Source of the DNA: Anaerococcus provencensis
Lineage (GTDB): Bacteria > Bacillota > Clostridia > Tissierellales > Peptoniphilaceae
Length of the DNA: 64,000 nucleotides
Direction: 5' to 3'
Assembly: GCF_000312365.2 (NCBI RefSeq)
Contig: NZ_HG003691.1
Span: 62,001-126,000 of the forward strand
The translations under genes were made by a program, and so were the position numbers. Shown here piece after piece: positions 5,419 through 31,726 of this stretch. How positions within the stretch are numbered: position 1 is the first letter of the stretch; each line of letters opens with the position of its first letter. The notes below the pieces were generated by a model that was given only the letters and a program-made list of their open reading frames with translations, was not told where the DNA came from and searched no databases.

Positions 5419-5940
5419 ATGCAAAATAACCCAATACTTACAATAGAAATGGAAAATGGCGATATAATAAAAGCTGAACTTTATCCAGAAATAGCCCCCA
5501 ATACAGTAAATAACTTTATATCCTTAGTTAATCAGGGATTTTATGATGGGATAATCTTCCATAGGGTTATAAAAGGATTTATGATCCAAGGGGGAGACCC
5601 AGACGGAACAGGCATGGGTGGCCCAGGATATTCTATCAAAGGTGAATTTAGGTCAAATGGTTTTGAAAATAATTTGAAACATAGCGCTGGAGTTGTATCA
5701 ATGGCAAGATCTATGATGCCAAATTCTGCTGGTAGCCAATTTTTCATCATGCATAAGGATAGTCCACATCTAGATGGTGACTATGCTGCATTCGGTAAAG
5801 TTATTGAGGGAATGGAAGTAGTCGACAAGATTGCAGAAACTGTAACAGACAGATCCGATAGACCAAAAGAAGAACAAAAAATGAAAAAAGTTACAGTTGA
5901 TACTTTCGGAGAAAACTACCCAGAGCCAGAAAAAATGTAA
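5419..5940 (+). CDS. Peptidyl-prolyl cis-trans isomerase (cyclophilin type)
   Basis: Cytoplasmic cyclophilin of 173 residues that catalyses proline isomerisation during folding. The whole cyclophilin core is present: IAPNTVNNFISLV, FHRVIKGFMIQGGDPDGTGMGG with the active-site Arg, GVVSMAR, GSQFFIMH and LDGDYAAFGKVIEGMEVVDKI. There is no signal sequence or lipobox, so it is the cytosolic PpiB-like form. It has an AAAGGAGAG site and follows the 4646 gene closely. A strong hairpin ends the unit. Symbol left empty because PpiB-like numbering varies between genomes. Confidence 0.95.
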   Translation: MQNNPILTIEMENGDIIKAELYPEIAPNTVNNFISLVNQGFYDGIIFHRVIKGFMIQGGDPDGTGMGGPGYSIKGEFRSNGFENNLKHSAGVVSMARSMMPNSAGSQFFIMHKDSPHLDGDYAAFGKVIEGMEVVDKIAETVTDRSDRPKEEQKMKKVTVDTFGENYPEPEKM

Positions 5941-5943
5941 TTT

Positions 5944-5984
5944 AAAAGACGTTGGTAGATGATTTTCTACCAACGTCTTTTTTA
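5944..5984. terminator. Bidirectional terminator
   Basis: AAAAGACGTTGGTAGA and TCTACCAACGTCTTTT form a 16-bp perfect stem with T-runs on the plus strand and A-runs that serve the convergent minus-strand gene ending at 5982. Confidence 0.9.
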
Positions 5985-6227
5985 ATTAATTTCTTTGCCA
6001 CAATTTCTGCAAGTTTTTCTAAAGTAATCATTTCTTTTTATCTGGTGCTTGCAGTGGGGGCATTTAAAGAAAATTTTCTCAATTATAATTGTGATTATAA
6101 ATATAATTAGAAAAATTATTATTGAATACCATGATAGCCTTCCCTTGTTTAGCAAGTCAAAGATTAAAATAGCAAGGCCAATAAAGCCTAAGATTAGATT
6201 TAATTGGCTAGCTTTTTTTAAATTCAC
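5982..6227 (-). CDS. Small membrane protein with C-terminal zinc ribbon
   Basis: 81 residues: two hydrophobic helices (about 10-26 and 34-52) followed by a cytoplasmic CPHC...CRNC zinc-ribbon. The start is GTG, supported by AAAGGAG seven bases upstream. It is similar in plan to the adjacent 84-residue protein (6254-6508), so the pair looks like an old tandem duplication. Both lie behind fbp in the same direction and likely share its transcript. Function unknown. Confidence 0.7.
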   Translation of the reverse strand: MNLKKASQLNLILGFIGLAILIFDLLNKGRLSWYSIIIFLIIFIITIIIEKIFFKCPHCKHQIKRNDYFRKTCRNCGKEIN

Positions 6228-6253
6228 TTATAGCTCCTTTATCAAAAATTAAT

Positions 6254-6508
6254 CTAAAATTTAGAAATATCTTTGCCACAGTGTGGGCAATATTTAGCTG
6301 GTTTTAGTAAATAATCATTAATTAGACTATTGCAATATGGACACTTATTGGCAGCAAAATACAATATAATACCAACAACAGCAAGTAATATAGCTAGAAC
6401 TATATTCCAAGTGATACTTGTAGCAAAGGGATTATTAAAGGCGAAAATTAAAATCAAAGCCACAATCCACAAGGCTATAGATATTAGGTTATAGTGTTTT
6501 CTTTTCAT
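6254..6508 (-). CDS. Small membrane protein with C-terminal zinc ribbon (paralogue)
   Basis: 84 residues: two membrane helices (about 8-25 and 32-52) and a CPYC...CPHC zinc-ribbon at the C-terminus. Its TAGGAG ribosome site overlaps the fbp stop codon, so translation is probably coupled to fbp. It resembles the following 81-residue protein in length, topology and cysteine pattern. Function unknown; such proteins may bind a partner through the zinc ribbon. Confidence 0.7.
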   Translation of the reverse strand: MKRKHYNLISIALWIVALILIFAFNNPFATSITWNIVLAILLAVVGIILYFAANKCPYCNSLINDYLLKPAKYCPHCGKDISKF

Positions 6509-6517
6509 TATTAACTC

Positions 6518-8416
6518 CTATAGATTGTCGTAATTTTCCAATAGTTTTTCAAGAACATTGATTCTTTCTTGGATAGTTTTGCCTTCGTCAGTATCTTTGA
6601 TTAGCATCCTTGGATGAAGGACTTCGACTTCTCTAATATTTGGCTTGTAAGAACTTACCTCATCTGTGATGGATTCGTAATTGCTGTGCTCTGCCAGGGA
6701 AACTGAGTGGGAGTTAAAGACTAAAGTGTATCCTGCTATGCCGGTTTTGGCTTGGTAAGGTTTGGATATGCCACCGTCTATTACATATAGTTTTCCTTTT
6801 GCCTTTACTGGACTGTCTCCTTTTTTGGTTTTTACAGGGACGTGTCCGTTTATGATTCTTCTTCTGTCACTTTTGACTTCAAATTCGTCCAAAATCATAT
6901 CTACAATTTCTTCCTTGTTGCAAAGTGAGAAATATGGGTTGTAGACTTCTTCTCTTAGTTTCTTGTCATCTACAAATAAATTTTCAAAGTATGAAAATTG
7001 AGATTTGCCAAAAATAGGGGAATATTTGCCATTAAAGAGATACCAGATAAAGTCTATGGAGTATTCGTCGTTTTTGTAGTAAGCATCACGAGTGATTTTT
7101 TCAAGCTTATCCATAAGGCTCTTGCCACAATATTTTTTGCCCTTTATTTCAATTTCTGTGAAAGATCCATCTTCATTTAGTGGAATACAACCATGGAATA
7201 ACAAAGAACCATTTTCTACTTTGTATAAGCTTCCGTTTTCGTATAAGAACTTTATGTGCTTGTTTAATTTCACACTGCGTTTAAAATCTTTTTGTAGGGT
7301 AGATATTACACATTTTTCCTCTTCTGTTAGTCTTAGAGGATCCTCTGGATCTACTGTAGGAAGATTTATATCTTTTAGGGCCACACCCTTGTAGGTCATG
7401 TTTTTGTAGTCTATATGTCTTAGGAAGTTCCTATCATCCATATTAAACTCTGGATTTCTTTCTAGGAGTTTGCCGTCAAGTTTGTATCTTATTATAGAAA
7501 TTGCCTTAAACATCTTTGCAGCAACTTCATCGTTTATATTGTCATATAAGTTTTTGTCAAAAACCCTTGGCATGAATATCTCTGCTGGATCATCGCCGTA
7601 TGTTGTCATAGCGAATTCATACAAAGGTCTAAGATTTATCCCATAACCATCTTCTAGCATATCAAAGTTGCTGTATTGGATGGCATTTGCAAGGCAGGCA
7701 GCTGTTAGAGCCTTATTGCCACAAACTGCCCCCATCCATTCTATGTCATGGTTGCCCCATTGAATATCAATATTTGGGAACCCTATAAGTTCATCTATAA
7801 TGACCTGAGGAGCAGGTCCTCTATCAAATATATCACCAACAACATGTAGTTTGTCGACGCTAATTCTTTGGATAAAAGTTGAAATTAGTATAATAAAATC
7901 TTTACCGGCCCCATACTTTACAACATTTTCTACGAGTTTATCATAGTAGGTTTTCTTGTTGTATTCGGAATCGTTGGTATAGAGCAACTCATCTACTATC
8001 GGTGAGAATAAGTCACCGAATTTTTCCTTTACATAGTCTTTGGCGTACTTGGTCGATACAAATCTAAATAAGCTTATGAGCCTGTGGATATTGATAGTTA
8101 GGAAATCTTCTGTAAGCTCGTTTTTTAATTCCAATTCGTGCAAGACTTCTTTTGGATTATAAACAAGTTCGGTCAGCCTATCTTGTTCTTCTTTAAGCAA
8201 GGTATCGCCAAAGTTTATGGATGTTTTTTCCCTGATATTGCCTGATGCAGACTTTAATAGTTGCAAAAATGCACTTGCCTCACCGTGGATGTCAGAGAAA
8301 AAATACTCAGTTCCTTTTGGTAGGTATAGTTTTGAACTAAGGGAAATTAGTTCGTTTCTTACTTCTCTTTTTGAATTGTAGTTCTCTTTTAATAATTTGT
8401 AATAACTTTCATCCAT
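6518..8416 (-). CDS. fbp: Fructose-1,6-bisphosphatase, class III
   Basis: Gluconeogenic enzyme that hydrolyses fructose-1,6-bisphosphate to fructose-6-phosphate. It has 632 residues, the usual length of the Firmicute class III family, which uses a calcineurin-like metallophosphatase fold. The metal-binding motifs are complete and in order: YFFSDIHGE, VVGDIFDRGP, IQWGNHDIEWMGA, and NGHVPVKTKKG near the C-terminus. It begins at ATG with AAAGGAT six bases upstream. That ribosome site lies inside one copy of a 44-bp tandem duplication (8416-8506). It is transcribed with the upstream 4-TM gene and the two downstream zinc-ribbon genes. Confidence 0.95.
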   Translation of the reverse strand: MDESYYKLLKENYNSKREVRNELISLSSKLYLPKGTEYFFSDIHGEASAFLQLLKSASGNIREKTSINFGDTLLKEEQDRLTELVYNPKEVLHELELKNELTEDFLTINIHRLISLFRFVSTKYAKDYVKEKFGDLFSPIVDELLYTNDSEYNKKTYYDKLVENVVKYGAGKDFIILISTFIQRISVDKLHVVGDIFDRGPAPQVIIDELIGFPNIDIQWGNHDIEWMGAVCGNKALTAACLANAIQYSNFDMLEDGYGINLRPLYEFAMTTYGDDPAEIFMPRVFDKNLYDNINDEVAAKMFKAISIIRYKLDGKLLERNPEFNMDDRNFLRHIDYKNMTYKGVALKDINLPTVDPEDPLRLTEEEKCVISTLQKDFKRSVKLNKHIKFLYENGSLYKVENGSLLFHGCIPLNEDGSFTEIEIKGKKYCGKSLMDKLEKITRDAYYKNDEYSIDFIWYLFNGKYSPIFGKSQFSYFENLFVDDKKLREEVYNPYFSLCNKEEIVDMILDEFEVKSDRRRIINGHVPVKTKKGDSPVKAKGKLYVIDGGISKPYQAKTGIAGYTLVFNSHSVSLAEHSNYESITDEVSSYKPNIREVEVLHPRMLIKDTDEGKTIQERINVLEKLLENYDNL

Positions 8417-12900: not shown

Positions 12901-13723
12901 TATGAACCTTGGACAAGTACTAGAAGTTCACATGGGTCTTGCTGCAAGAACTATGGGCTGGAAAGTTGCAACACCAGTATTTGATGGGGCAATGGATACA
13001 GAAATAGAAGATGCTCTTGAAGAAGCAGCACTTAAGGCTCCATACATCAACAAAACAGGCAAAATCGAACTTCGTGATGGTCGTACAGGAGAAGCCTTTG
13101 AAAACCCTGTAACTGTAGGTGTCATGTACATGCTAAAACTTCACCACATGGTTGAAGAGAAAATCCACGCTAGATCAATTGGACCATACTCACTAGTAAC
13201 CCAACAACCTCTTGGTGGTAAGGCACAATTTGGTGGCCAAAGATTTGGTGAAATGGAAGTGTGGGCTCTAGAAGCCTATGGTGCAAGCCATACCCTACAA
13301 GAAATCCTAACTGTTAAATCAGACGACGTTACTGGCCGTGTGAAAACTTACGAAGCCATAGTAAAAGGTGAAAACATCCCAGAACCAGGCACACCAGAAT
13401 CATTCAAAGTACTAGTAAAAGAGCTACAATCACTAGCCTTGGATGTTGAATTGCTTGATGATGATGGATCAGTTATAGAAATAAAAGAAAATGTTGACGA
13501 ACAAGATAGGTTTAGTCAAGTTGATAAAATAGATGCATCAAAGATTAAATCCCAAAGTAAATTATTAAGTCAAAACGCTGAAAAAGTTACAAATGAAAAT
13601 ACTGTAAAAGCTAGCGATGAAGAAAACATTGAATCTTCAGATGACTTATTAATAGAAAAAGAATTTGAAAATTTATATGAAGATTCTGAAAACGAAGGAT
13701 TTAGCATTGAGGAAATAGAATAG
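9941..13723 (+). CDS. rpoB: DNA-directed RNA polymerase subunit beta
   Basis: Beta subunit of RNA polymerase, 1260 residues. Conserved blocks include the rifampicin-binding region [20 protein letters not shown] with [10 protein letters not shown] after it; the resistance hot-spots (Gln, Asp, His, Ser) are wild type, so no rifampicin resistance is predicted. Further on are [19 protein letters not shown], the [10 protein letters not shown] active-site region and the C-terminal [21 protein letters not shown] clamp motif. After the conserved DVELL end, about 85 extra residues form an acidic, low-complexity tail; Firmicute beta subunits often have such tails. It has GAAGGAG upstream, its own promoter and a leader hairpin. 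rpoC starts 8 bases after the stop. Confidence 0.99.
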
Positions 13724-13731
13724 GGAGATTT

Positions 13732-16700
13732 ATGAGCGAATTACAAACTTTTGATGGGATGAGGATGAAAATCGCATCCCCTGAAAAAATCAGATCCTGG
13801 TCTCATGGTGAAGTTAAAAAACCAGAGACAATCAATTATAGAACCCTTAAACCAGAAAAAGATGGTCTATTTTGTGAAAAAATCTTTGGACCAACAAAAG
13901 ATTATGAATGTTCTTGTGGTAAATACAAGAGAATCCGCTACAAGGGAGTAGTTTGTGAAAAATGTGGGGTTGAAGTAACCAAGGCAAAAGTTCGCCGTGA
14001 AAGAATGGGTCATATCGAACTTGCTGCTCCAGTTTCCCATATTTGGTACTTCAAAGGTATTCCATCAAAGATGGGTCTACTCTTGGATATGAGCCCAAGG
14101 ATACTAGAAAAAATCCTATATTTTGCATCATATGTAGTAATCAACCCTGGTTCTACAGACCTAATGGTAAAACAAGATATCACAGAAAGTGAATACCAAG
14201 ATACCTTAGAAAAATTCCCAGATGATACAGAATTTAGGGCTGCAATGGGAGCTGAAGCTGTAAAAGAACTTTTAGCAAACATTGACCTAGAAAAAGAATA
14301 CGAAACCCTAATGAAAGAACTGGAAGATGCTACAGGTCAAAAGAAAGTTAGAATTTCTAGACGTCTAGAAGTTGTTGATGCCTTTATGACTAGTGGCAAC
14401 CGTCCTGAATGGATGATATTAGATGTACTTCCAGTTATGCCACCAGAACTTAGACCAATGGTTCAACTTGAAGGTGGTAGATTTGCAACAAGTGACCTTA
14501 ACGATCTTTATAGACGTGTAATCAACAGAAACAACAGACTAAAAAGACTTCTTGATATAGGAGCACCAGAAATTATCGTTCGTAACGAAAAAAGAATGCT
14601 CCAAGAAGCTGTCGATGCCCTAATTGACAATGGTCGTCGTGGACGAGCTGTAACAGGCGCATCAAACAGAAATATGAAGTCTCTATCAGACCTACTAAAA
14701 GGTAAATCTGGACGTTTCCGTCAAAACTTACTTGGTAAACGTGTAGACTATTCTGGTCGTTCGGTAATCGTAGTAGGCCCAGACCTTAAGTTTAACCAAT
14801 GTGGTCTACCTCAAGAAATGGCTCTAGAACTATTTAAACCATTTATCATGAACAAGGTAGTAGATCGTGGCATGGCTCACAATCTTAAAGCTGCCAAAAA
14901 AATGGTAGAAAAGAAGGACCCTAGAGTATACGAAGTACTTGAAGAAGTAATCAAAGACCACCCAGTTTTACTAAACCGTGCCCCTACACTTCACAGACTT
15001 GGTATCCAAGCATTTGAACCAGTTCTAGTAGAAGGTAAGGCTATCAAATTACACCCACTAGCTTGTAACGCATTTAACGCCGACTTTGACGGGGACCAAA
15101 TGGCTATCCACTTGCCACTATCAAACGAAGCACAAATCGAAGCAAGACTACTAATGATGTCAACAAACAACATCTTGGGTCTAAAAGATGGTAAACCAAT
15201 CACAACTCCATCTCAAGATATGGTTCTTGGTGCATATTACCTAACAACTATCAAAGAAGGTGCCAAGGGCGAAGGTATGGTTTTTGAATCTACAAATGAG
15301 ATGAAAAAAGCCCTTCTTGCAGGAGTTGTAGAATACCAAAGTAAAATTGGCGTTAGAATCAAAAAAGACGATGAAGATCCAGGCAAAATTGTAGAATCTT
15401 CTGTAGGTAGGTTTATCTACAACGAGGGAATTCCACAAGATTTAGGTTATGTAAACCGTAAGGAAGACCCATACTCACTTGAAATAAACCAAGTTGCAGA
15501 CTCTGGAGTCCTAAAAGACATAGTTGATAGGTGCTTTAGAAAACACGGCAACATTAAGACAGCTGAAGTTCTAGACTACATCAAACAAACAGGATATAAA
15601 TATTCAACCCTATCAGGACTTACAGTATCTATGGCTGACGTTAATATTCCAAAAGAAAAATGGGATATAATAGCAGAAGCAGATGCAGAAGTTGATAGAT
15701 ATGAAAAACTTTATAGACGTGGTCTTATCACAGATGATGAAAGATACGAAAAAGTTATCGATATCTGGAGAGTTACAACTGATAAAGTAACAGATGCTCT
15801 ACTAACAGATCTTAGAGATGACAATAACATCAAGATATTTGCCGACTCTGGTGCCCGTGGTTCAACCAACCAAATCAGACAGCTAGGCGGTATGCGTGGT
15901 CTTATGAGTCAGGCCGATGGTAAGACAATAGAAATCCCAGTAAAGGCAAACTTCCGTGAAGGTCTTTCTGTACAAGAGTACTTTATATCTTCACACGGTT
16001 CACGTAAGGGACTTACAGATACAGCCCTACGTACAGCAGACTCTGGTTACCTAACCCGTCGTATGGTAGACATATCTCAAGACGTTATAGTAACAGAAGA
16101 TGATTGCCATACAAATGGCTATGTCGAAGCCTATGAATTTAAAGATGGCAACGAATTAGTAGAAAATCTATACACTCGTATAGTTGGACGTACATCATTT
16201 GAAGATGTCAAAGATGAAAATGGAGAAATCCTAGCCCACAAAGACCAACTAATCGATGAGGATACAGCAGATAGAATAGTAGCAGCTGGCGTTAAAAAAG
16301 TAAAACTACGCTCAGTACTAGAATGTAAGGCAGAACACGGTGTTTGTGCAAAATGCTATGGTAGAAACCTTGCAACTGGTAAACCAGTAAATATTGGAGA
16401 AGCGGTGGGAATCATTGCTGCCCAATCAATCGGTGAACCAGGTACCCAGCTAACCATGCGTACCTTCCACTCAGGTGGTATAGCAGGTGTTGGAATCACA
16501 TCAGGTCTTCCAAGGGTAGAAGAGTTATTTGAAGCTAGAAAACCTAAGGGACTTGCTTATATTGCAGAAAATAGTGGTACAGTAACACTTATCCAAAACG
16601 AGAAGAAAACTGACGTTGAAATCCTATCCGAAGATGGATATGCACAAAAATACAACATCCCATTCGGATCAAGAATCCTTGTTCACGATGGAGATGTAGT

Positions 16701-17352: not shown

Positions 17353-18399
17353 TTGCAAATAATATTACGGCACCTAAACCAAACCAAATTCGTGCATAAA
17401 TAAATCAAATGGGGTTTGATATTTTATACATTTTCTAGGTCTGGTATTAAGCTCCATTAAGTTTTTAACCAGTTCATTAATAGATATTTTAGATAAGTCG
17501 GTTTTCTTAGGATAATATTCTCTTAATAAACCATTAGAATTTTCGTTACTGCCTCTTTGCCATGCTGAATATGCATCAGCAAAATAAAAACTTATACCTC
17601 GTTTTTCAACATCTTCATAACAAGCAAATTCTTTGCCTCTGTCAGATGTGAATGTCTTTAAAGTTTCTATTGGTAAAGATTTTATTAACTTATCAATTGC
17701 CCCTAACATCGAATTTTTACTTCGATCTACCATGGGTAAGGCAATATAAAATCTAGTTTTTCTTTCTACAAATGTTGCTAGGCAACCTTTACTTTTACCT
17801 CTAGAGGATACAACTGTATCTAATTCCCAATGACCGAAAGTATTCCTTTTTTTGACTTCTTTAGGTCTTTTGTTTATTGATTTACCAATATTAAACTTAC
17901 CTCTTGTTTCTTTTGGCTTTCTTGATTTTACTTTTCTTCTTAGCTCAGAAATATCAAAGTCTATAATCCCTGAATAAATCCAATTATATATTGTTTTAAA
18001 GCACACAATATCTTTGCATACAGTGTTTGCTATTTGCTCAGGAGACCACTTCTTATGAAGTTTTTCAGATGGATTTTGTGACATTATCATCAGCTTTTGA
18101 TTTTCTTCCTTTAGATGATGATTTTTTTATCTTATCTCTTTGGGCATAGACAGCTTCATACTCATTATCACATCTTTTTAATTCTCTAGAAATTGTGGAG
18201 TGATGGAAACCTAAAATTATCGCTATTCTTCTAGAAGAATAGCCCTCTTTGTTTAGTAGCTCTATCTTATTTCTCTCATTTAGGGTAAGATGTTTATAAC
18301 TCATATTGACCTCCGTGTGTGTTTTTGTCGTTATTAACATTTTACACGAAGTTAGTATGAGCTTTTTATATTGTTCTAGTGTCGCATTTGATTTTACAA
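17353..18399 (-). mobile_element. IS30-family insertion sequence, frameshifted
   Basis: About 1047 bases inserted just behind the rpoBC terminator. The ends are imperfect inverted repeats of 21 bases: left TTGCAAAT...CGGCAC (17353-17373) against the complement of the right end TTGTAAAA...CGACAC (18379-18399), 13 of 21 identical. Length and transposase type fit the IS30 family. I could not settle a target duplication. End positions are approximate by a few bases. Confidence 0.75.
17374..18304 (-). pseudogene. IS30-family transposase, +1 frameshift
   Basis: DDE transposase split into two frames. The first (start 18304, GGAGG site) gives the helix-turn-helix: MSYKHLTLNERNKIELL...HHSTISREL, ending at TGA (18065-18067). 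The second continues from about 18090 with KLHKKWSPEQIA and the catalytic core: ELDTVV, SDRGKEF and the Glu in NENSNGLLREY. Removing one T at ATC-TGA restores a continuous KSIEKLHKKWSPEQIA, as expected for the family. So this is either an inactivating one-base insertion or, less likely, a programmed +1 shift at the slow stop codon. IS30 transposases are normally one reading frame of about 310-350 residues. Confidence 0.85.
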
Positions 18400-22538: not shown

Positions 22539-22566
22539 TTGTCAAATGTTGTATAATAGTTATAAT
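22539..22566 (+). promoter_or_regulatory. Promoter of the kinase-fusion gene
   Basis: TTGTCA (22539-22544), 16-base spacer, TATAAT (22561-22566), about 90 bases before the 22655 start. A second TATAAT at 22552-22557 has no good -35. Confidence 0.6.
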
Positions 22567-22654: not shown

Positions 22655-25600
22655 ATGGACACTTTGATTTCACAAGAAAATATTAATACAAGTGAACAAA
22701 CTAGTAAAAGAACTTCGCTTGTTGGCGAAAAATTTAATATTATATCCATGATGGGTGAGGTCAAATATGAGGTTGAGGTAAAAAAGCTCATCGGTCAAGG
22801 AGGATCATCTTTAGTATATGAGGTAGAGGTAGACGATACTTACCCACCAAAAAAGAAGATGATTATGAAAGAGTTTTATCCAAATTATGATGAGGAAAAA
22901 ATAACTGCAGAAAGAAATCCACTCAATAGATTGGAATTATATTTTGATTCTGTAGATTTTGAAAGCGAAGAGAGGATAAAAAAAGATCGAAATTCTTTTA
23001 TTGACGCTTACAGTAAGCATATAAGGATTCTTGATATGGATCCTTATTTGGAAAGCAGAATTGTAAGGCCATATAGGGTTGAGATTGATAAGTCCTACCT
23101 ATATTCCCTATATGAAGTTGACACAGCTACAAGTGTTGATAAATATTATAATCTAGATTTGATTAGGATTGTAGATATATTAAAACAGACTGCCGATATT
23201 TTAGTTCACCTCCACAACAAAGACATCATATATATGGATTTGAAACCAGCCAATATTCTCTATGACTATAACAATGGCAAGGTGAAACTTTTTGATTTCG
23301 ATGCTGCTGTTGACCTTAATGAGCTAGAATATATCAATGAATTTTCTATGCCAAATGAGAGGGCGTTTATTCCTCCAGAACTTAGATTCATAACAGATAT
23401 AGCCAATAGAAAAGATTTTTTCATAACTGAAGAAATTGACGTCTATATGCTGGGTGTAACATTTTTCCTACTGATTATGGGCAGGTATCCTACTGAGCTT
23501 GAAAATGAAGATATGGATTATCTGAGGAGAAATCTGGAAGATACCCTAAGCAACAAATCAAACAAAATCCTACTAACATCAAAAGCTACAGATGGCATTA
23601 TAAAATTACTGCAAGACTCACTGACAGTTCATAGATATATTAGTGCATCTGATTTCAAAAATAGTCTTGATGATATAGAAAGCAATCTTAGATTTAGGAA
23701 TAATGAAGATTTTGCTAATATAATTTCAGCTGCATATTTCTTAGACTATAAGAGACTATATAATTATATAGTCGACAAAGACGGCAAGAAAAGTATGGAT
23801 GTGGCTATAGTTGGCAACAATGAGATTTCGAGAGTTCTCTTTTCTTTTATATTTTCAATTGCAAATGTAAAAGGAGTAGATTTAAATATATCATTTTATG
23901 ACAAGAATCCAAAGAAATTCTATGATGATATGCTAAGAGAAAACCCACTCTTGGCCAAAACTACAGAAATATCTCTTAATAGCAAGCTAAGCATGAGAAA
24001 TATTAATGAAAAAATTACCGACCAACCATATGCATATATAAATTTCTTATCATCAAAAGAAAAAATAGACCAATCTTACATACTTATTTTGGATAAGACT
24101 GGTTACGATTATTACAATTTAGCTGACGCCATATACAATGAATTTAAAGATGACAGTCAAAAAAGAATTATCCTAAACTATTCTAGAAATAACCACGAAG
24201 TGGATATAAGACATGGAAAAAACATAGAGTTTTACAACCTAGACCTTGCATCAACATTGACCTTCAGTAACAAAAATCACCATGATGAGATTTTAGACAA
24301 GGCATTTAGTATATATAGGTTGCATGCCTTGGAGAATTTTGGTGAGAGGATTGACTATAACAGCATATGGGAAAGCTTCTCAAAGGATGATTTCTACAAT
24401 TTAAAATCATCCATCAGGGTTGCCCTATCAATTGAGTACCTGATTTATATGGCAGGCATAGATAATACAGATGATAGAGAATCTTTATTTTATAACAAGG
24501 TAGTAAAGGCTTGTCAAGATGAAGATGAATTAAATATTAGAGATATTTTTGCTGAATGTGAACACCACTCTTGGAATAGATTTATGATAGCTCAAGGATT
24601 TAAGCTTCCAAGTGAAGCTGAGCTAAATTCTTATGCCTATGTTGACCAGAAATCCTATGCAGATTTCCAAAACAAATTCCATCCACTTATCGTCAATACC
24701 CATATAGATAGGGTCAAAAAGGGAGAAAACGACGAATTAGCTGATATTTCCGTTCATATCAACAATTTGATACAAGAAAAAACCATCTACAAGGAAGAGC
24801 AAATAAAATCAAGGCTATTAAATATATTAAACAATACTTTCTGGAATGACAACCAGTATCTAAAAGAGCTCAGACCCTTGTGGGTAAAGCTTGTAAAATT
24901 GTCCTATAGCATCATGGAAAACGAGTATTATTCAAACAATACTTTAAATATTTTGACTTATGAAATAGAAGAAATACTCCAAAAAGCTAACCCAGATTTG
25001 AGCATACTTACAAATGATTATTATCAGATTAAAGATGACTTAAACTTGCTGATTAAGAGAAATCAAACATTTGATACTAGAACAATAGATTACATGATAG
25101 TAGATTCTATACCTTTTATATCTACAAACAAGATAAAGACTATATTTAAGCCTTTTTTGGATGATGATGAAAATCTGTGGGCTAATATCATTGCGGCAAT
25201 CAAATTTGACCCAGAAAAACTCATATTTTTATCAGATGAAAAAGTTGATAGCAACAAGATTAATAGGATAGAAAACTTTTTGAGAAATAAGAGATTGCAA
25301 AAATCTATGAAAATTGAAGTGATTCCTTATGGTAAAATGAAACTTTACAACAAGAATCATTCTTTAGTGGATTTGACCCTAAATAGCCACCTAGATGGTA
25401 AAAGGTCTGAATTTGCCGGCCTCCCATTTGTAGAATACATTGGATCAAACAAATGGAATGGAAGCTATAAGGCTCTGGACTTTTATAATGGCAGATCTTC
25501 TCTTACTGTGGAAGAAACTTTCTTCCTAAACAATGCCCAAGTCTATGATAATATAAGTCTAACTAATATAACAAGATTGATTAATCACTATTATGCGATT

Positions 25601-26659
25601 TGGCAAACATATCTAAAATTAGATCCCAATGATTGGGATAAATTTGCTAGGGCAATAAAATATAACGAAGATGATTATATATTAAACTTAGATAGATTTG
25701 AAAAAGAAGAAGAACATTCCTTGATAGAAGTTGGAGATTTTAAATTTAGAAGAAACGACGCTTCCAAATATCTTTCCCTAAAACATCTATTGGATGAATT
25801 GGTCAAAGAAGAGATAATTTATAATTATGAATTCCCAATAAATCCAGGCAAGATCAAAATTGATTCTTATAATGATCAGATGTCCATGGCCTTGGGAGAA
25901 TTTATATCTAATAATATATGCGAATACAATCTAAGCTTTGATCTGGTAAAAATAGAAATAGCTAAGAAAAACTATCAATACTCCTATTTTGTAGTATCTG
26001 ATAAACTAGCTTTTGAATATGAGTACCAGGTGGAAAATCCAAAAGAATTTGTCAAGATAAGCAATGAAATAATGGATGAGTATGATTTATCAAATGAGTT
26101 AAGTAATGTTAGAATATTTAATAGAATAAATGATCAAGCCTATGTACAAGCCAAAGATAAGTCTGTTGTATTTTCCTACGAATTTGGCGATGTAGCTTTC
26201 AGAGAATTCTTTAGGAATTATAACAATAAGGGCAATATACTTAGAGTATTTACCTACTTCGAGCTTATAAAATATGCAGATTACTTTGACGAGATAAAAT
26301 TAAGAGTAAACCTAAGATGGAAAGCCTACGATGATTATAGGGAAGACAGTCTACCTATTGAAAACTTCTTAGATATAGTTTGTACAAAGGGATTTACAAC
26401 TATAATTATTTCGACCATTGAAAGACATATAAGAAATGAAGACCTATACGAAATCAACAACCACGCTAAGCAGTTTGGTATGGACGCCAAGCCTGTGTTA
26501 GTTGCAACAAACTCTCACGATGACACAAGTCAGATAAAGATGATTGCAGCAGCTGCAGGAGTATTCTTCATAGATAGAGATATGATCAAAGATAATGGCA
26601 TAGTTGATTATATCAAGAACATAGCCATGGGTAAGAAAGAATGGCAGGATATAGAATAA
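22655..26659 (+). CDS. Large protein-kinase fusion: kinase, Rossmann-like, CARF-like domains
   Basis: 1334 residues, soluble, no membrane helix. Residues 40-330 are a Ser/Thr kinase: glycine loop IGQGGSSLVYEV (46-57), Lys72, catalytic loop YMDLKPANIL with Asp195 and Asn200, metal Asp214 in DFD rather than DFG, and IPPELR as the APE motif. From 381 an MDVAIVGNNEISRVL strand-loop-helix looks Rossmann-like, followed by a helical part with EHHSWNRFMIAQGF (636-649) and HPLIV, a combination I associate with RyR/TrkA-N-type proteins. At about 820-960, FDPEKLIFLSDEK (851-863) and LPFVEYIG...LTVEETFFL resemble the CARF half of DUF1887/Card1 proteins. The C-terminus has LDIVCTKGFTTIIIST; if it is the nuclease part, Asp1240 remains but the E-x-K pair is Ser1253/Ile1255. 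Good promoter and terminator; single gene. Domain calls beyond the kinase are inference. Confidence 0.75.
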   Translation: MDTLISQENINTSEQTSKRTSLVGEKFNIISMMGEVKYEVEVKKLIGQGGSSLVYEVEVDDTYPPKKKMIMKEFYPNYDEEKITAERNPLNRLELYFDSVDFESEERIKKDRNSFIDAYSKHIRILDMDPYLESRIVRPYRVEIDKSYLYSLYEVDTATSVDKYYNLDLIRIVDILKQTADILVHLHNKDIIYMDLKPANILYDYNNGKVKLFDFDAAVDLNELEYINEFSMPNERAFIPPELRFITDIANRKDFFITEEIDVYMLGVTFFLLIMGRYPTELENEDMDYLRRNLEDTLSNKSNKILLTSKATDGIIKLLQDSLTVHRYISASDFKNSLDDIESNLRFRNNEDFANIISAAYFLDYKRLYNYIVDKDGKKSMDVAIVGNNEISRVLFSFIFSIANVKGVDLNISFYDKNPKKFYDDMLRENPLLAKTTEISLNSKLSMRNINEKITDQPYAYINFLSSKEKIDQSYILILDKTGYDYYNLADAIYNEFKDDSQKRIILNYSRNNHEVDIRHGKNIEFYNLDLASTLTFSNKNHHDEILDKAFSIYRLHALENFGERIDYNSIWESFSKDDFYNLKSSIRVALSIEYLIYMAGIDNTDDRESLFYNKVVKACQDEDELNIRDIFAECEHHSWNRFMIAQGFKLPSEAELNSYAYVDQKSYADFQNKFHPLIVNTHIDRVKKGENDELADISVHINNLIQEKTIYKEEQIKSRLLNILNNTFWNDNQYLKELRPLWVKLVKLSYSIMENEYYSNNTLNILTYEIEEILQKANPDLSILTNDYYQIKDDLNLLIKRNQTFDTRTIDYMIVDSIPFISTNKIKTIFKPFLDDDENLWANIIAAIKFDPEKLIFLSDEKVDSNKINRIENFLRNKRLQKSMKIEVIPYGKMKLYNKNHSLVDLTLNSHLDGKRSEFAGLPFVEYIGSNKWNGSYKALDFYNGRSSLTVEETFFLNNAQVYDNISLTNITRLINHYYAIWQTYLKLDPNDWDKFARAIKYNEDDYILNLDRFEKEEEHSLIEVGDFKFRRNDASKYLSLKHLLDELVKEEIIYNYEFPINPGKIKIDSYNDQMSMALGEFISNNICEYNLSFDLVKIEIAKKNYQYSYFVVSDKLAFEYEYQVENPKEFVKISNEIMDEYDLSNELSNVRIFNRINDQAYVQAKDKSVVFSYEFGDVAFREFFRNYNNKGNILRVFTYFELIKYADYFDEIKLRVNLRWKAYDDYREDSLPIENFLDIVCTKGFTTIIISTIERHIRNEDLYEINNHAKQFGMDAKPVLVATNSHDDTSQIKMIAAAAGVFFIDRDMIKDNGIVDYIKNIAMGKKEWQDIE

Positions 26660-26802
26660 AATAATCTTGCAATTTAAGTGCAAATATTTTTTATTTAAAT
26701 CAATAGTAGATTAGTTAATTTTGAACTAGGGTATACCTTACAAGAAAATTTTGAAGAAAGAATTAGTATAAAAAATTTAATGATTATTCGAAATTAGAAA
26801 AA

Positions 26803-26864
26803 ATATCTAAGTACTTTCCATAGATAAGTTACTCTACTCATTGAAAGTACTTGGGTATATTTTT
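26803..26864 (+). terminator. Terminator after the kinase-fusion gene
   Basis: AAGTACTTTC (26809-26818) and GAAAGTACTT (26843-26852) form a perfect 10-bp stem that can extend outward, with a 24-base loop and a following T-run. The long distance from the stop (150 bases) is unusual; the DNA between holds nothing I can support. Confidence 0.65.
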
Positions 26865-26910
26865 TTACCTTAACAATTTGTAATAAAACCAATACTTTAG
26901 GAGAGTTTTT

Positions 26911-27798
26911 TTATGGCGTTTTAAAATTTTTTTGATAGTATGATTTTCTTTTGTATTTATTCAATATTAATGAATGAAGATTTTTATCAGTCTTTTTGGC
27001 TTCTTCTAGGGCAAGCTGCGCTACTTCTTTGTAGTCTATAGATAGGTCATAAAGAATAATGGATTTCATATATAACATAATTGGAGATGATTTTTCTTTA
27101 GAGTTTAATTCAATGGCCTTATTTATATACTCCAGAGCTGTTTTACTCTTATCTAGATTATAATAAGCAACTGCGATATTATGAAATAAAATAGAATTAA
27201 AATTATTGTCATTAATCTTTGAATTTTCTAGAAACATTAATACTTTAAGTTTGTCATCGAACGAATCCATCACCTGTGTATAGTTCATAAGAAGCCTGTA
27301 ATCTAAACTATCGTAGGTATTTGAATCAAGATTAGAAAAATCAAAAGTTTTACCAGTATTTAGGGCTTCAATGATGATAGCTTTTCTTTTTGCTTTATCA
27401 TCTTGAATTTGCATATTTTCGAAAAATAACCTTAATTTCCTAGCTCTATTTTTGATGATTTTCCTAAAAGTACTGTTTTCTATGTCCGTAAGTATTTCTA
27501 TTTCATTAGCATAAGAAAGACCTGCTACATTATCCCTTGCATTAAGATCATCTATAATTTTATCTATTATCTTTGAATCTTCTAAGAATATGTTTAAATA
27601 TTCCTCAACTAAATCCACATTTAATATATTAGAAAAAACTTCTAATTTATCTATATCAATAGTGTATTTGCCGTTTTCAATATCTGAAATAGTTTTTACA
27701 TTTATATAAGATAACTCTGATAGTTTTTCCTGCGTGAGTCTATTATTTAATCTAAAATATCTAAATATCTTACCAAAAATAATATTAGAGTTATTCAT
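26911..27798 (-). CDS. XRE-family regulator with TPR-like C-terminal domain
   Basis: 295-residue transcription regulator. Residues 5-65 form the helix-turn-helix (RLTQEKLSELSYINVKTISDIENG). The remainder is helical with a TPR-like repeat (FHNIAVAYYNLDKSKTALEYINKAIEL). This is the plan of the RNPP/Rgg-type regulators, which often sense short peptides. A TTG at 27810 is in frame, but ATG 27798 has GGAG seven bases upstream and is preferred. It is divergent from the pseudogene-permease-ATPase group at 27913-31726 and probably controls it; TCTATAGA (27843-27850) between them is a candidate operator. Confidence 0.8.
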   Translation of the reverse strand: MNNSNIIFGKIFRYFRLNNRLTQEKLSELSYINVKTISDIENGKYTIDIDKLEVFSNILNVDLVEEYLNIFLEDSKIIDKIIDDLNARDNVAGLSYANEIEILTDIENSTFRKIIKNRARKLRLFFENMQIQDDKAKRKAIIIEALNTGKTFDFSNLDSNTYDSLDYRLLMNYTQVMDSFDDKLKVLMFLENSKINDNNFNSILFHNIAVAYYNLDKSKTALEYINKAIELNSKEKSSPIMLYMKSIILYDLSIDYKEVAQLALEEAKKTDKNLHSLILNKYKRKSYYQKNFKTP

Positions 27799-27912
27799 GT
27801 AAATCTCCAAAATAATAATTATAACAAAAAATAAATATAATGTCTATAGAGGAATTATACATTAATTTAATTATTTTTCTATGTTAACATTTATTTAAAT
27901 GGAGATGATAGT

Positions 27913-28252
27913 ATGTTAAGAATAATGACTACTATTTAAAGATTTATTACTGTGCTTATTTTTTAAAGAAACAGAATTTTTTGATCTAATAGATTACTTA
28001 ATAAAGCCATATATAAAGTAATACATTGATTTTATTAGTAAATATGGTAAAGTCTTAACAATAAATGATATTAAATTAACACTAACTGGATCTAGTATAG
28101 GATTGTCTGGTAATGATATATTTGAATTGTATCTAATATTTTGCAATTATTTTTCACTAATAATAAAGTTGGAAGATTATTATGATTTTTATTCAATAGA
28201 AAGAATAGCTACAACGATAATAAGACAAAAGGATAGGGGATATGAGTTTTAA
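27913..28252 (+). pseudogene. Decayed acyl-carrier-like gene of a peptide maturation module
   Basis: No intact reading frame, but a continuous relic. After GGAGATGATAGT-ATG at 27913 the frame breaks after five codons. One base further it reads LLFKDLLLCLFFKETEFF, then TAA at 28019-28021, then 76 open codons (28022-28249) with TGSSIGLSGNDIFELYLIF and ending RGYEF. The IGLSGNDIFELY stretch resembles acyl-carrier-related proteins of clostridial peptide maturation systems. Its stop overlaps the next start by 11 bases, so it was once coupled to the permease. At least one frameshift and one in-frame stop are needed to explain it. The family call is from memory of the pattern. Confidence 0.55.
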
Positions 28253-29927
28253 AGATGAAATTAAATTAATTTTTAGGAAGCCTTGGAAATTTGTTATAAT
28301 GCTAGTGATTTCTACAATAATTCTATTTTCCTTTTTACTTATGGTCTTTAATTTCCTTACTTCGAGAAATAATTTGGATAGAATGAAAGATAATTATGCT
28401 CAAATTTCTACGATAGTTATGGCAAATCCTAGTAGAGATGGGAAGCCTTTAGAGTATACAGAGATTGATAAGGACTTAATTGATGAAATTAATAAGTCTG
28501 ACCTTGTTGATAGGGTGGAAATTAGAGATACTATGGCTGCTAGGATTCCTGGCACAAATAATGCAAATATTACCTTTGGTGCTGCAGCAACAAATGCTAT
28601 AGCGGTATTTAAGGGAAAGGTTGAAGAAGTAACAGACAGGCAAGATTTCGGTTCAACAGAAGGCATAAATGCTATCGTTACAATAGAAAAGATAATTGCA
28701 TCTAAAGATAGTTGGCTTAGAGAAGGGGAAAGCGTAAGCCTATCTATAAATATGAGCAAGGATGCACGTGTTAAGCTTGATAACGACAAGTCTTACGTGT
28801 TTATGGGTGTTTGCGAGCCAACAAGTCTTGGATATATGCGTCAGTATCTATTGGTTAGTAGAATTAGTGAAAAATTAATGATGGAAGAAGGTAAATCAAA
28901 AGAGCTTACATCTTTATACACAAAGGGTGTTTTAGAAGACGAAGAGGATTTAGACAAAGACTTTATTTATTTTTTGAAGAATGAAATCAAAAATCAAGAT
29001 GACCTTTATACTCTAAGGCTTGTTTCCGATATGAATATGGTCTTGCCAGTAGCTAATGAAAATATGTTTTTACTTGAGGGTAGATGGATTTCTGAGGATG
29101 ATTATGGTAAAGACCTTTGTTTAATCTCTAGAGATTTAGCGAAAAAACACAATTTTAAACTGGGCGATAAAATAGATATAGAATTATCTTCTGATATATA
29201 TAAGAGCCATAATGGTTATGTATCAGCATTTCCACTTATGCTTGATGAGGGTAATTACGATTTTGACGAAACTAGAGCTTTCGAGGTAGTAGGTATCTAT
29301 GACTTTACAGACTTAAATATAGAAAATAGTCCTATGCTTTTTTCCTTAAATGATATATTTATTCCAAAATTTAAGGAAGAGCTAAACACAAGTTTTGTGA
29401 CACCTCATAACTTGTCTTTAAAAATTGGGGTGGACAATATAGCTAGTTTTGAAGAAGAACTCCTACCAGAAATCGAAAAGGCTGGCTACAGATTAGTGTC
29501 AGCTGACAACAATTGGTCTAAGGTGGAGTCATCCTTTGGTCTTATAAAAAAATCCATGGTAAAGAATCTTATTTATGGACTTGCTATTGGCATAGTAGGG
29601 ATACTTATTTTAGTATTTGTAAATACTACATTAAATAAAAACGAATATGTTCTAAGAAGAATTTTTGCAGGAGATAAAAACCATATAAATCGAAGTTTAA
29701 AACTATCTTTGATATTAGCGCTTTGCATAGGTTTTGTAATAGCTCTTGGATCAATCTTTGGCTTTGCAGATAAGCTTTTATCTAATAAAGATATGATTCT
29801 TATTTTTAACAAGTTTGACTATTTAATTTTACTTCTTGCAGGGCTTGTATTCCTAGCTATTGCTCTAATTATTAACCAAAAGAGAATTAAAAAGTTAGAG
29901 AAAAAAGACATAGTGGAGTTGATGTAA
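28242..29927 (+). CDS. ABC transporter permease, FtsX/MacB-like
   Basis: 561-residue membrane protein: one N-terminal helix (about 16-38), an extracellular domain of some 390 residues, then three C-terminal helices (about 445-462, 485-507 and 525-545). This is the FtsX/MacB permease layout, in which the complex moves or senses substrates at the membrane surface rather than forming a classical pore. It is the first permease of a three-gene operon with 29933 and the 31070 ATPase. Start ATG with AGGGGAT; it overlaps the preceding pseudogene. Substrate unknown; peptide export or immunity is likely from context. Confidence 0.8.
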   Translation: MSFKDEIKLIFRKPWKFVIMLVISTIILFSFLLMVFNFLTSRNNLDRMKDNYAQISTIVMANPSRDGKPLEYTEIDKDLIDEINKSDLVDRVEIRDTMAARIPGTNNANITFGAAATNAIAVFKGKVEEVTDRQDFGSTEGINAIVTIEKIIASKDSWLREGESVSLSINMSKDARVKLDNDKSYVFMGVCEPTSLGYMRQYLLVSRISEKLMMEEGKSKELTSLYTKGVLEDEEDLDKDFIYFLKNEIKNQDDLYTLRLVSDMNMVLPVANENMFLLEGRWISEDDYGKDLCLISRDLAKKHNFKLGDKIDIELSSDIYKSHNGYVSAFPLMLDEGNYDFDETRAFEVVGIYDFTDLNIENSPMLFSLNDIFIPKFKEELNTSFVTPHNLSLKIGVDNIASFEEELLPEIEKAGYRLVSADNNWSKVESSFGLIKKSMVKNLIYGLAIGIVGILILVFVNTTLNKNEYVLRRIFAGDKNHINRSLKLSLILALCIGFVIALGSIFGFADKLLSNKDMILIFNKFDYLILLLAGLVFLAIALIINQKRIKKLEKKDIVELM

Positions 29928-29932
29928 TAATC

Positions 29933-31069
29933 ATGATTAAAACATTTTTAAGAAAACCTATTTATCTTATTCTTTATACAATATTAATATTTCTTGGTTT
30001 TTACGGCATGGCTGAGATTAATAAAAATATTAAATCAGATAAAAACGAGTATAAGTACATTTATGAAAATACTGAAATCAAGGGCCAAGTCAAGGAAACA
30101 ACAAGTATAGGCGGAGAAGTAAGCTTAGATTATTATGATCTTTATCCCTTATTTTTGCAAGAAGAAATTGGAGAAATTTATACTAGAGCCTTTGCCAAGG
30201 GTTTTATAGATAAAGAGCAAATCGAGGATACTAATAATACTAAAGATGATGGCGGAGTAGATGTGTTCGCATCAAATGATGTTGGAAAGCTAATTGAGAG
30301 AAATTTTGTATTCTTTGACGGGGATACAAAGTTAGAGAAGGGTGAGGCCTTAGTATCTGAAGATTTTGCAAAAAAATACGCTTTAAATAAATATGATAAG
30401 TTTAGACTAAAGTTGGATATAGAAAGCAAAGAAGACTTATATATGGATTTACTGGTTAAGGATTTTGTAGATCTCAATGAGTCGGTGCTAGCATTAGATT
30501 CTGTAATTGTAAATAATAAAACTATGTTTGATGATAATCTCATGGGAAATAGCTTTTATAAAGAGGCTTATGGATCTTATTTAGGCTTTAACTTTAAAAT
30601 CAATCCTAAATATAATAATGATTATGAAAGAATTAAGGAAAAAATCGATAATATTTTAGGAACTAAGTATCTTGCTCCAACAAATGCCAAAGACTTCTAT
30701 AACGTGGTAAAACCCCTAGAAGAGAAAATAAAAGATGAGGAGAAGCTTCTTTCCATCATAAAAATAGCACTAGCGATTTTTTCTTCTTTGATATTGGTTC
30801 TAAAGGTCAAGGAGGAGAATATCTCTATACTGATTAGGAAGATTTTTGGAGAAAGTGAAGTAAAAGTATTTGCTTCATACTTTTTAAGCCTAGGATTGTT
30901 AGTCCTTCTTATAAATGGATTAAGCTTTATGATTGTAAATAGAGTATCATATATTTCCCTTAAGGATCTTGCTATAAATCTATTGATAAATCTTATAGTA
31001 TTAATTACTGGCTTATTTTTAATAATTTACAAAGATATTTTTATCCTATATCAGAAAACGGAGGATTAA
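29933..31069 (+). CDS. ABC transporter permease, second subunit
   Basis: 378 residues with the same layout as its neighbour but a smaller external domain: N-terminal helix (about 10-27), an extracellular part of about 230 residues, and three C-terminal helices (about 275-291, 310-330 and 340-365). It probably pairs with the 561-residue permease as a heterodimer. It begins 5 bases after the previous stop, with TGATGTAATAATC upstream (weak site, probably translational coupling). The ATPase ATG directly follows its TAA. Confidence 0.75.
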   Translation: MIKTFLRKPIYLILYTILIFLGFYGMAEINKNIKSDKNEYKYIYENTEIKGQVKETTSIGGEVSLDYYDLYPLFLQEEIGEIYTRAFAKGFIDKEQIEDTNNTKDDGGVDVFASNDVGKLIERNFVFFDGDTKLEKGEALVSEDFAKKYALNKYDKFRLKLDIESKEDLYMDLLVKDFVDLNESVLALDSVIVNNKTMFDDNLMGNSFYKEAYGSYLGFNFKINPKYNNDYERIKEKIDNILGTKYLAPTNAKDFYNVVKPLEEKIKDEEKLLSIIKIALAIFSSLILVLKVKEENISILIRKIFGESEVKVFASYFLSLGLLVLLINGLSFMIVNRVSYISLKDLAINLLINLIVLITGLFLIIYKDIFILYQKTED

Positions 31070-31726
31070 ATGAATAAATTAGAAATATCAAATGTTGGCT
31101 ATGTATATAATAAATCTGACAAAATTATCTTAAGAGATGTATCAGCAAGTTTTCTAGAGGGGACTGTGTCATCTATTGTGGGAGAATCTGGTGCTGGAAA
31201 ATCTACACTTTTATATATAATATCTGGCTTTAGCAAACCAAAGGCTGGCAAAATTTCCTATAATGGAAAAGAAGTCGAGGATTTGAGGGACTATAGGAGG
31301 AATATAGTATCAACAATTAGCCAGTCCTATATGCTTTTTCCTACAAGAACAGTTTTAGAAAATGTGATGTATCCAATGTTACTGGATAAAATAAACAAAA
31401 ACGAAGCAAGAGATAAAGCCAAAGACCAATTAAAATCGGTAGCAATTGATGATATCCACTTTGATAAATTACCTGAAAAATTATCAGGAGGGGAGAAGCA
31501 AAGAGTCGCCATAGCTAGAGCTCTTGCGGCAAATTCAAAGATAATAGTGGCAGATGAGCCAACTGGAAATCTAGACGATAAAAACTCCGAAGAAATCTAT
31601 GCCATATTTGATAGGCTTGCTAAAGAAGATGGAAAAATCATAATAATCGTAAGTCATGATAGACACCTTTCAAAAAAGGCTGACTATCAGTATGAGATGA
31701 AGGATGGGAAATTAAATCAAATATAG
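31070..31726 (+). CDS. ABC transporter ATP-binding protein
   Basis: 218-residue ATPase driving the two preceding permeases. Walker A GESGAGKST, Q-loop ISQSY, signature [15 protein letters not shown], Walker B IIVADEPTGNLDD and the H-loop VSHD are all intact, so it should be active. Its sequence group is the MacB/LolD-like export class. The start codon is immediately behind the stop of the 378-residue permease with GGAGG before it. The whole unit faces away from the XRE/TPR regulator at 26911. Confidence 0.93.
   Translation: MNKLEISNVGYVYNKSDKIILRDVSASFLEGTVSSIVGESGAGKSTLLYIISGFSKPKAGKISYNGKEVEDLRDYRRNIVSTISQSYMLFPTRTVLENVMYPMLLDKINKNEARDKAKDQLKSVAIDDIHFDKLPEKLSGGEKQRVAIARALAANSKIIVADEPTGNLDDKNSEEIYAIFDRLAKEDGKIIIIVSHDRHLSKKADYQYEMKDGKLNQI

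Follow-up and report, generated by a model that had tools for sequence, protein, structure and literature searches.

A predicted Hanks-type kinase joined to a putative Rossmann–RyR–CARF–pseudonuclease sensor in Anaerococcus provencensis

The window analysed here is a stretch of 64,000 nucleotides from Anaerococcus provencensis (contig NZ_HG003691.1, positions 62,001 to 126,000 of the forward strand); coordinates are those of the window unless another locus is named. At 22655–26659 on the forward strand it holds a complete open reading frame with an ATG start and without internal stops, which encodes a protein of 1334 residues with the predicted domain order kinase, Rossmann, RyR, CARF and pseudonuclease; relatives align with it from end to end. 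Taken together, sequence comparisons and structure models suggest that this protein is a ligand-controlled kinase in front of a Rossmann–RyR–CARF–pseudonuclease sensor that probably works in stress or phage conflict, and a probability of roughly 0.55 was assigned to this reading.

The C-terminal module was modelled as residues 790–1334 on 34 alignment rows, giving a mean predicted local distance difference test score (pLDDT) of 82.5 and a predicted template-modelling score of 0.79. An earlier 994-residue model (residues 341–1334) had low pLDDT in the nuclease part and was superseded there by the 34-row model; the earlier, poorer model likewise ranked Cdn1 and Can2 first. All 21 Foldseek rows at E <= 0.001 were VC1899, Can2, Card1, Cdn1 or Can1. 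Alignment of residues 825–1327 with VIA-align gave a Z score of 25.0 for VC1899 (PDB entry 1xmx; root-mean-square deviation 3.5, 343 residues aligned), 21.9 for Can2 (8bao; 326 aligned), 21.4 for Cdn1 and 19.5 for Card1, and the best row outside these proteins and Can1 had a Z score of 10.2. The CARF domain (residues ~825–940; 25127–25474, forward strand) was placed by this whole-module match and by CARF structures of Csa3 and Csm6 (Z ~8), and the PD-(D/E)xK nuclease fold without an active site (residues ~1179–1327; 26189–26635, forward strand) by model, fold match and alignment. The order that characterizes DUF1887 proteins, CARF and then PD-(D/E)xK, was found over model residues 36–538. An initial annotation made from the sequence had proposed a CARF half and a PD-(D/E)xK half of the Card1/Can2 kind, and the Foldseek and VIA-align rankings bear this out. 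The window module therefore has the whole-module fold of VC1899, Can2 and Card1 (DUF1887, PF09002), from which the protein differs in that the module is fused behind a kinase, a Rossmann part and an RyR part and has lost the catalytic Glu and Lys.

Sequence comparison links the module to the same family. Profile A4, in which fused distant relatives were added to the profile of the post-kinase part, matched 26 distinct stand-alone proteins of 202 residues (cut at a contig end) to 827 residues; 21 of the 26 were matched by a CARF stretch and then a nuclease stretch in that order, the weakest CARF stretches lying at 0.03 to 0.004 (E-values for stand-alone proteins refer to the frames of the loci searched). 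The stand-alone protein L072 matches Can2 (7bdv) over residues 3–348 at 1.6e-4 among 177,635 PDB sequences. The match of profile A3 to 3sxp (0.08) in the PDB sequences was rejected as a chance match. The Pfam model Card1_endonuc (PF09002) gave no match in the window protein; it matched three distant full-length fused proteins with the same domain order, L063 (1412 residues; 7.8e-6), L064 (1359 residues; 5.3e-4) and L065 (1507 residues; 1.5e-4), and L024, a 30% relative inside the genus (1.4e-4), all four scoring 20.0–25.9 bits against a cut-off of 26.4. These three distant proteins come from those class-search matches that were examined as loci. In L068 (6576–9059; the same gene is present in L062) a Card1-like CARF–nuclease forms the first 420 residues of an 827-residue protein.

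The nuclease has lost its catalytic Glu and Lys. Alignment places the motif at 26363–26419 (forward strand), where the window protein reads NFLD...STI: Asn1237 and Asp1240 are kept while the Glu (Phe1238) and the Lys (Ile1255) are replaced. Relatives read NE[ILFV]D...[SE]CK at this motif, and Can2 reads NELD and ECK. The pattern N-E-x-D...[SE]-C-K is kept in 20 of 20 stand-alone rows and in all four outlying fused rows (NEFD...ECK in L064 and L065, SCK in L024 and L063); the Glu after the Asn and the Lys are both gone from all ten sequences of the window's group and the operon paralogues described below. A dead nuclease had been predicted on the grounds that Ser1253 and Ile1255 replace an E-x-K pair. 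The prediction of a dead site and the loss of the Lys both hold, but Ser1253 is no sign of it: all 20 clostridial stand-alone relatives have SCK in place of the ECK of Can2, so that it is the lost Lys and Glu that indicate a dead site. According to the available part of PMC7969007, the Can2 mutants E276A/D278A and, in another Can2, E302A/K304A are inactive; E276 and D278 are the Glu and Asp of NELD in the numbering of the printed chain. The ratio of nonsynonymous to synonymous substitution rates (dN/dS), given for the two closest copies (dS saturates against more distant ones), is 0.032 and 0.036 for the dead nuclease domain against the copies of G024 and G026, and 0.069 and 0.073 for the whole gene. 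The dead nuclease domain is under strong purifying selection and is not decaying.

Pfam gave no match to the ~1000 residues that follow the kinase in the window protein, described in the initial annotation as unlike ordinary kinase sensors. The first part (residues ~341–560; 23675–24334, forward strand) was assigned as a Rossmann domain, perhaps of TrkA/RCK type, from a fold match and from a profile link to Rossmann–RyR proteins. For model residues 1–204 (residues 341–544 of the protein) the fold matches include the TrkA gating ring with ATP-gamma-S bound (4j9v; Z 8.3) and GsuK with bound NAD (4gx2; Z 7.7), and the TrkA/RCK likeness is suggestive only. The next part (residues ~615–690, EHHSWNRFMI ... 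HPLI; 24497–24724, forward strand) is a probable RyR domain. The Pfam model RyR (PF02026) matched neither the window protein nor any of the 11 members scanned; the link is through profile A4, which in a search of 98 frames matched L130 (1.7e-10) and L129 (1.9e-9) in a stretch overlapping their Pfam RyR regions, and these two pass the Pfam cut-off of 27.4 bits with 29.7 and 32.1 bits, respectively. In the same 98 frames the profile matched the Rossmann–RyR proteins L066 (5.2e-30) and L067 (7.3e-30). In the class sample of 99 genomes, Pfam RyR was present in only four. Of the two nucleotide-binding likenesses suggested at the outset, RyR is thus upheld and TrkA-N remains suggestive. L066, L067, L129 and L130 have the Rossmann–RyR order of the window protein but differ from it in having neither kinase nor CARF domain and in having apparent membrane helices (by eye). 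In L066 (6125–9614) and L067 (389–4863) the Rossmann–RyR gene is followed by TIR-type genes (identified with PADLOC in L067 and by eye in L066), an arrangement that is possibly a separate RyR–TIR system. A separate 93-residue RyR protein (2.2e-37) starts two bases downstream of the fused gene in L064.

The N-terminal part (residues ~20–345; 22712–23689, forward strand) is a Hanks-type Ser/Thr kinase domain. Kinase models were the only Pfam matches in the window protein, the best being PF00069 (5.9e-21, residues 133–323). The VAIK Lys, the catalytic-loop Asp and Asn and the metal-binding Asp are present as K72, D195, N200 and D214, and these residues together with K197 are invariant in the ten full-length aligned copies from the genus; the complete kinase with DFD described earlier is confirmed. 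The Lys, Asp, Asn and Asp are also kept in L063, L064 and L065, in which the DFG position reads DFG, DIN and DIN, respectively, and Pfam Pkinase was matched in all three (in L065 at 0.011, under the cut-off).

Paralogues of the gene stand in an operon. In L022, L025 and L026 four genes lie on the same strand, encoding proteins of 176–190 residues, 561–562 residues, the kinase–CARF protein and 1243–1287 residues; the last is a DUF4062, NPHP3/STAND-type NTPase and TPR protein by Pfam in L025 and in the related L023, and the others are homologous. DUF4062/STAND–TPR proteins occur mostly in conflict systems. L023 has the 557-residue, kinase–CARF and STAND genes and lacks the small gene, a member of whose family also adjoins the fused gene in L024 and L063. 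Pfam found nothing over its cut-off for the two other partners (members from L025; for the small one also that of L063), and comparison of the 561–562-residue partner with the 565- and 757-residue proteins upstream in L065 and L064 showed no homology (hhalign probability 0.4). A PP2C phosphatase gene lies directly upstream of the fused gene in two of the three distant loci (L064, 8.1e-23; L065, 2e-19), and TIR proteins are found near it in L063 and L064. The proposed stress or conflict setting rests on this STAND partner, on the TIR and PP2C genes near the distant fused genes and on what CARF proteins usually do. Among further observations at these loci, the kinase and sensor of L025 (8668–12687, the second copy of A. 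nagyae) lie in two adjacent frames, as if split in two; L063 has a TIR domain fused to a Hanks-type kinase (5680–7248, 522 residues) and ClpP and TraG/TraD-type coupling protein genes near the fused gene; and L024 has only fragments of a STAND gene (13409–14522) beside the 30% relative with the intact nuclease motif.

The post-kinase part was found at 11 loci in 8 of 31 Anaerococcus genomes, three of which carry two copies. Of these copies, the ten that have kinase and sensor in a single frame can be aligned from end to end; together with the dN/dS values, this speaks against a chance finding. The folds match and the gene is confined to a minority of genomes, so neither of the two outcomes named beforehand as speaking against the initial annotation, the lack of a CARF or PD-(D/E)xK match and a gene conserved in all relatives, was observed. 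No relative came up in a contig scan with the window protein alone; a second scan, with profile A2, found seven Anaerococcus loci (A. nagyae, A. octavius and Anaerococcus sp. among the relatives). The family search matched 9 of 130 genomes, the sole match outside the genus (G053) being weak, containing internal stops and not being used; in the order search (9 of 249) eight were the genus carriers and the ninth (G083) was set aside for the same defects. With the post-kinase profile 34 of 391 genomes were matched in the class (the genome of the window counted). The phylum search matched 5 of 398 (that genome and G358 counted). No match to the family was found in phages; 80 stretches of viral contigs that fitted a pattern yielded no relatives, and 13 plasmid records matched the kinase stretch only, covering no more than 16% of the query.

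The window gene shares its place with five near orthologues (L017–L021): all six are flanked by a gene for an LLM-type monooxygenase on one side and a tpx-type gene on the other, with additional genes intervening before tpx in some. In the protein tree, of which only the joins inside the genus were used because of long outer branches (G550, G358, G009 and G475), the six solo copies group together (support 100/99), with the operon copy G013_op1 as their sister (100/100 for the seven). The simplest history of the sequences is that the solo gene descends from an operon and that its partners were lost. The gene had been described as a single gene, and it is one at its locus, yet it appears to be the orphan of the four-gene operon of its paralogues; in our reading it encodes a CRISPR-independent, ligand-controlled kinase that has become separated from a signalling or conflict module linked to STAND.

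The neighbours also allow another setting. Both paralogous loci are near peroxidase-type genes, namely a Redoxin/AhpC-TSA gene (tpx by eye) at the window's group and AhpC-TSA and AhpF-like genes adjoining the operon group, so that redox signalling could instead be the setting. The protein would then be a redox- or NAD-state kinase of ordinary physiology, in which the kinase adjusts metabolism according to the NAD(H) or ATP sensed by the Rossmann part, without a role in conflict; the locus positions common to several species of the genus and the ATP-gamma-S- and NAD-bound structures among the Rossmann matches would suit such a function. Against it, a tpx-type match occurs in 31 of 31 genomes and the kinase in only eight, the operon partner is the STAND–TPR protein and no BLAST match to the tpx or AhpC genes of the genus was found within 8 kb of the fused genes of L063–L065. 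We consider this account rather unlikely.

A different role within conflict would make the kinase itself a toxic effector that, triggered by the STAND protein of the paralogues, arrests growth by phosphorylating essential proteins of the host. In NCBIfam and PADLOC the kinase stretch matches assorted defence and signalling kinases, and the antiphage kinases PD-T4-6, MADS6 and BREX PglW share with the window protein a Hanks-type kinase, for their part in a defence setting. The likeness is limited to the kinase domain, and kinase domains match one another broadly: the NCBIfam matches are far under the curated cut-offs, neither MADS6 (44.3 bits against 460) nor PglW (20.2 against 990) is matched as a whole protein, and the best stretches listed for PD-T4-6 in PADLOC, for which no cut-offs apply, lie within residues ~149–379 and none extends beyond the kinase stretch. 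A toxic kinase is accordingly improbable.

The loss of partners raises the question of decay. The genome of the window holds a broken second operon copy (L027, 7307–11082 on contig C7), in which the kinase lies in two frames, the sensor is missing, the small and 560-residue genes are whole and the STAND gene is a 147-residue remnant. Another genome, G023, has no kinase gene and its tpx adjoins an LLM paralogue (95% identical to the LLM gene at 8132 of L020 and 68% to that of the window); since G023 is the sister of the carrier G008 in a tree of 492 rpoC residues from nine genomes (support 95/94), loss of the gene is likely, but G023 is not a clean empty site by its sequence, as both the kinase gene and the adjacent LLM copy are missing. 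These losses and the dead nuclease site would fit a decaying relic of a lost operon without present function. The window gene is nevertheless full length, as are its five near orthologues, and with a whole-gene dN/dS of ~0.07 against the two closest copies such a relic is very improbable.

The CARF pocket bears on the ligand. Can2 contacts cyclic tetra-adenylate (cA4) through Ser19, Thr42, Lys99 and Tyr118 in common with Can1, according to the available part of PMC7969007, and an alignment that agrees with that of phmmer places an Asp (in the run 836–838), Asp861, His912 and Glu927 of the window protein at these positions; the CARF motif TGGTK is replaced by TLNSH (25370–25390, forward strand), with His912 at Can2 Lys99. 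VC1899 has Asp, Asp, Arg and Val at the same four positions and, in the same part of that paper, is not activated by cA4. Cas10 (model PF22335) was found in none of the 31 Anaerococcus genomes and over the cut-off in none of 14 distant genomes, three of which carry fused and the rest related proteins (four had matches under the cut-off); the absence refers to one model, which is not fully specific, since it also matches 5 of 14 control genomes, Escherichia coli among them, so that the test is one-sided. Can2 and Card1, which of the solved relatives whose activator is known are the nearest, are bound or activated by cA4 and would suggest a type III CRISPR ancillary effector that responds to cyclic oligoadenylate. 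Given the VC1899-like pocket and the negative result with the Cas10 model, this reading is hardly credible, and cA4 from a type III system is an unlikely ligand. The window protein differs from Can2 in the pocket, VC1899 shares the lack of contacts, and no Cas10 was found by this model in the genome of the window.

For the ligand-controlled kinase a mechanism can be proposed. A small molecule, probably a nucleotide other than cA4, would bind one or more of the sensor domains, and the CARF–pseudonuclease module would change shape as Can2 does on binding and thereby switch the kinase; what is a signal for cutting in the relatives may here be one for phosphorylation. The target in the ancestral operon would be a neighbour, with the STAND–TPR protein and the two unnamed partners as the likeliest candidates, and in distant relatives the PP2C phosphatase could reset the phosphorylation. 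These neighbours are gone from the window copy but selection on it continues, and it must therefore have other targets or find its partners elsewhere in the genome or cell. A more specific form of the proposal is tentative: a CRISPR-type nuclease module would have become a pure allosteric sensor that drives a kinase within a STAND-linked, Cas10-free immune or cell-suicide module, its messenger being read by the stacked Rossmann, RyR and CARF domains and PP2C resetting it in distant relatives.

Several observations weigh against the ligand-controlled kinase. The Arg of the kinase HRD motif is Met and DFG is DFD, and the matches to defence kinases are weak and confined to the kinase stretch. Rossmann fold matches with Z scores of about 8 are common. 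Constraint is lower in the RyR part (dN/dS 0.205 against G026) and in the stretch from CARF to nuclease (0.134 and 0.162). All four Can2 residues that contact cA4 are replaced, so that the CARF domain may bind nothing. The window copy stands without the operon partners, two of which (members from L025) have no match in PADLOC or NCBIfam. The models TIR_2 (7 of 31 genomes, six over the cut-off; carriers G009, G024 and G026) and SMODS (3 of 31; carrier G013) matched nothing in the window's own genome, which leaves no signal maker in sight there.

A link between kinases and CARF domains is not a new idea. Makarova 2014 describes, in the available part of PMC4012209, a small family with the order Zn ribbon, kinase, AAA+, CARF and winged helix–turn–helix, for which kinase signalling was proposed, and also VC1899-family genes outside CRISPR loci. 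That family resembles the window protein in having a protein kinase fused upstream of CARF; an AAA+ domain between kinase and CARF and a winged helix–turn–helix behind were not found in the window protein, the corresponding stretches being Rossmann–RyR and a Can2-type PD-(D/E)xK pseudonuclease. Can1 (6sce), as far as its available description goes, likewise links CARF to a nuclease-like domain without active-site residues, but it belongs to the CRISPR effectors, its second half is active and it has no kinase. The architecture of the window protein, with a Can2-type pseudonuclease, an RyR part and, among paralogues, a STAND-bearing operon, was not found described in the openly licensed literature searched by titles and abstract starts. 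In the parts available of the sources consulted, the outputs of CARF effectors comprise nucleic acid cutting, NAD use, ATP deamination or dephosphorylation, membrane depolarization and transcription control; if the kinase is the only remaining output of the CARF module, reversible phosphorylation would join them. Fused proteins with kinase and intact motif (L024, L063, L064 and L065) and those with a dead motif (the window's group) form a natural series for such an exchange of output, and the operon, with its STAND protein and two families without a name in the libraries searched, is a small testable unit.

The initial annotation had also given the gene its own promoter and terminator. A sigma-70-like match (11/12) was found by consensus scan at 22539–22566 on the forward strand; it is weak, as such sites are about equally common in shuffled sequence (38 observed in the region against 27.2, standard deviation 5.2). 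The same scan reported no terminator between 26660 and 26950, and shuffled versions of the first 106 nucleotides 3' of the gene fold equally well (z 0.37); by eye, a weak hairpin was seen at 26667–26683, and a 10 bp inverted repeat (26809–26852) that together with the T run behind it spans 26809–26866, unassigned as to strand, is a possible terminator. The accessory patch that had been noted beside the gene is present, with an IS30-like transposase (by eye) in two frames at 17374–18340, flanked by rpoC and a gene for an OPT transporter, and with an ABC transporter set that weakly matches FtsX/MacB; within 26911–31726, this set follows a gene for a 299-residue regulator with helix–turn–helix and TPR parts, which is convergent to that of the kinase. 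Judging by its neighbours the kinase gene is chromosomal, and it belongs to the accessory genes. The region that begins at rpoC and extends to genes of ribosomal-protein and fusA type (by eye; 13732 to ~39600) varies in six further genomes (L131–L136), and its LLM, OPT, ABC, PTS and kinase–CARF genes differ between species.

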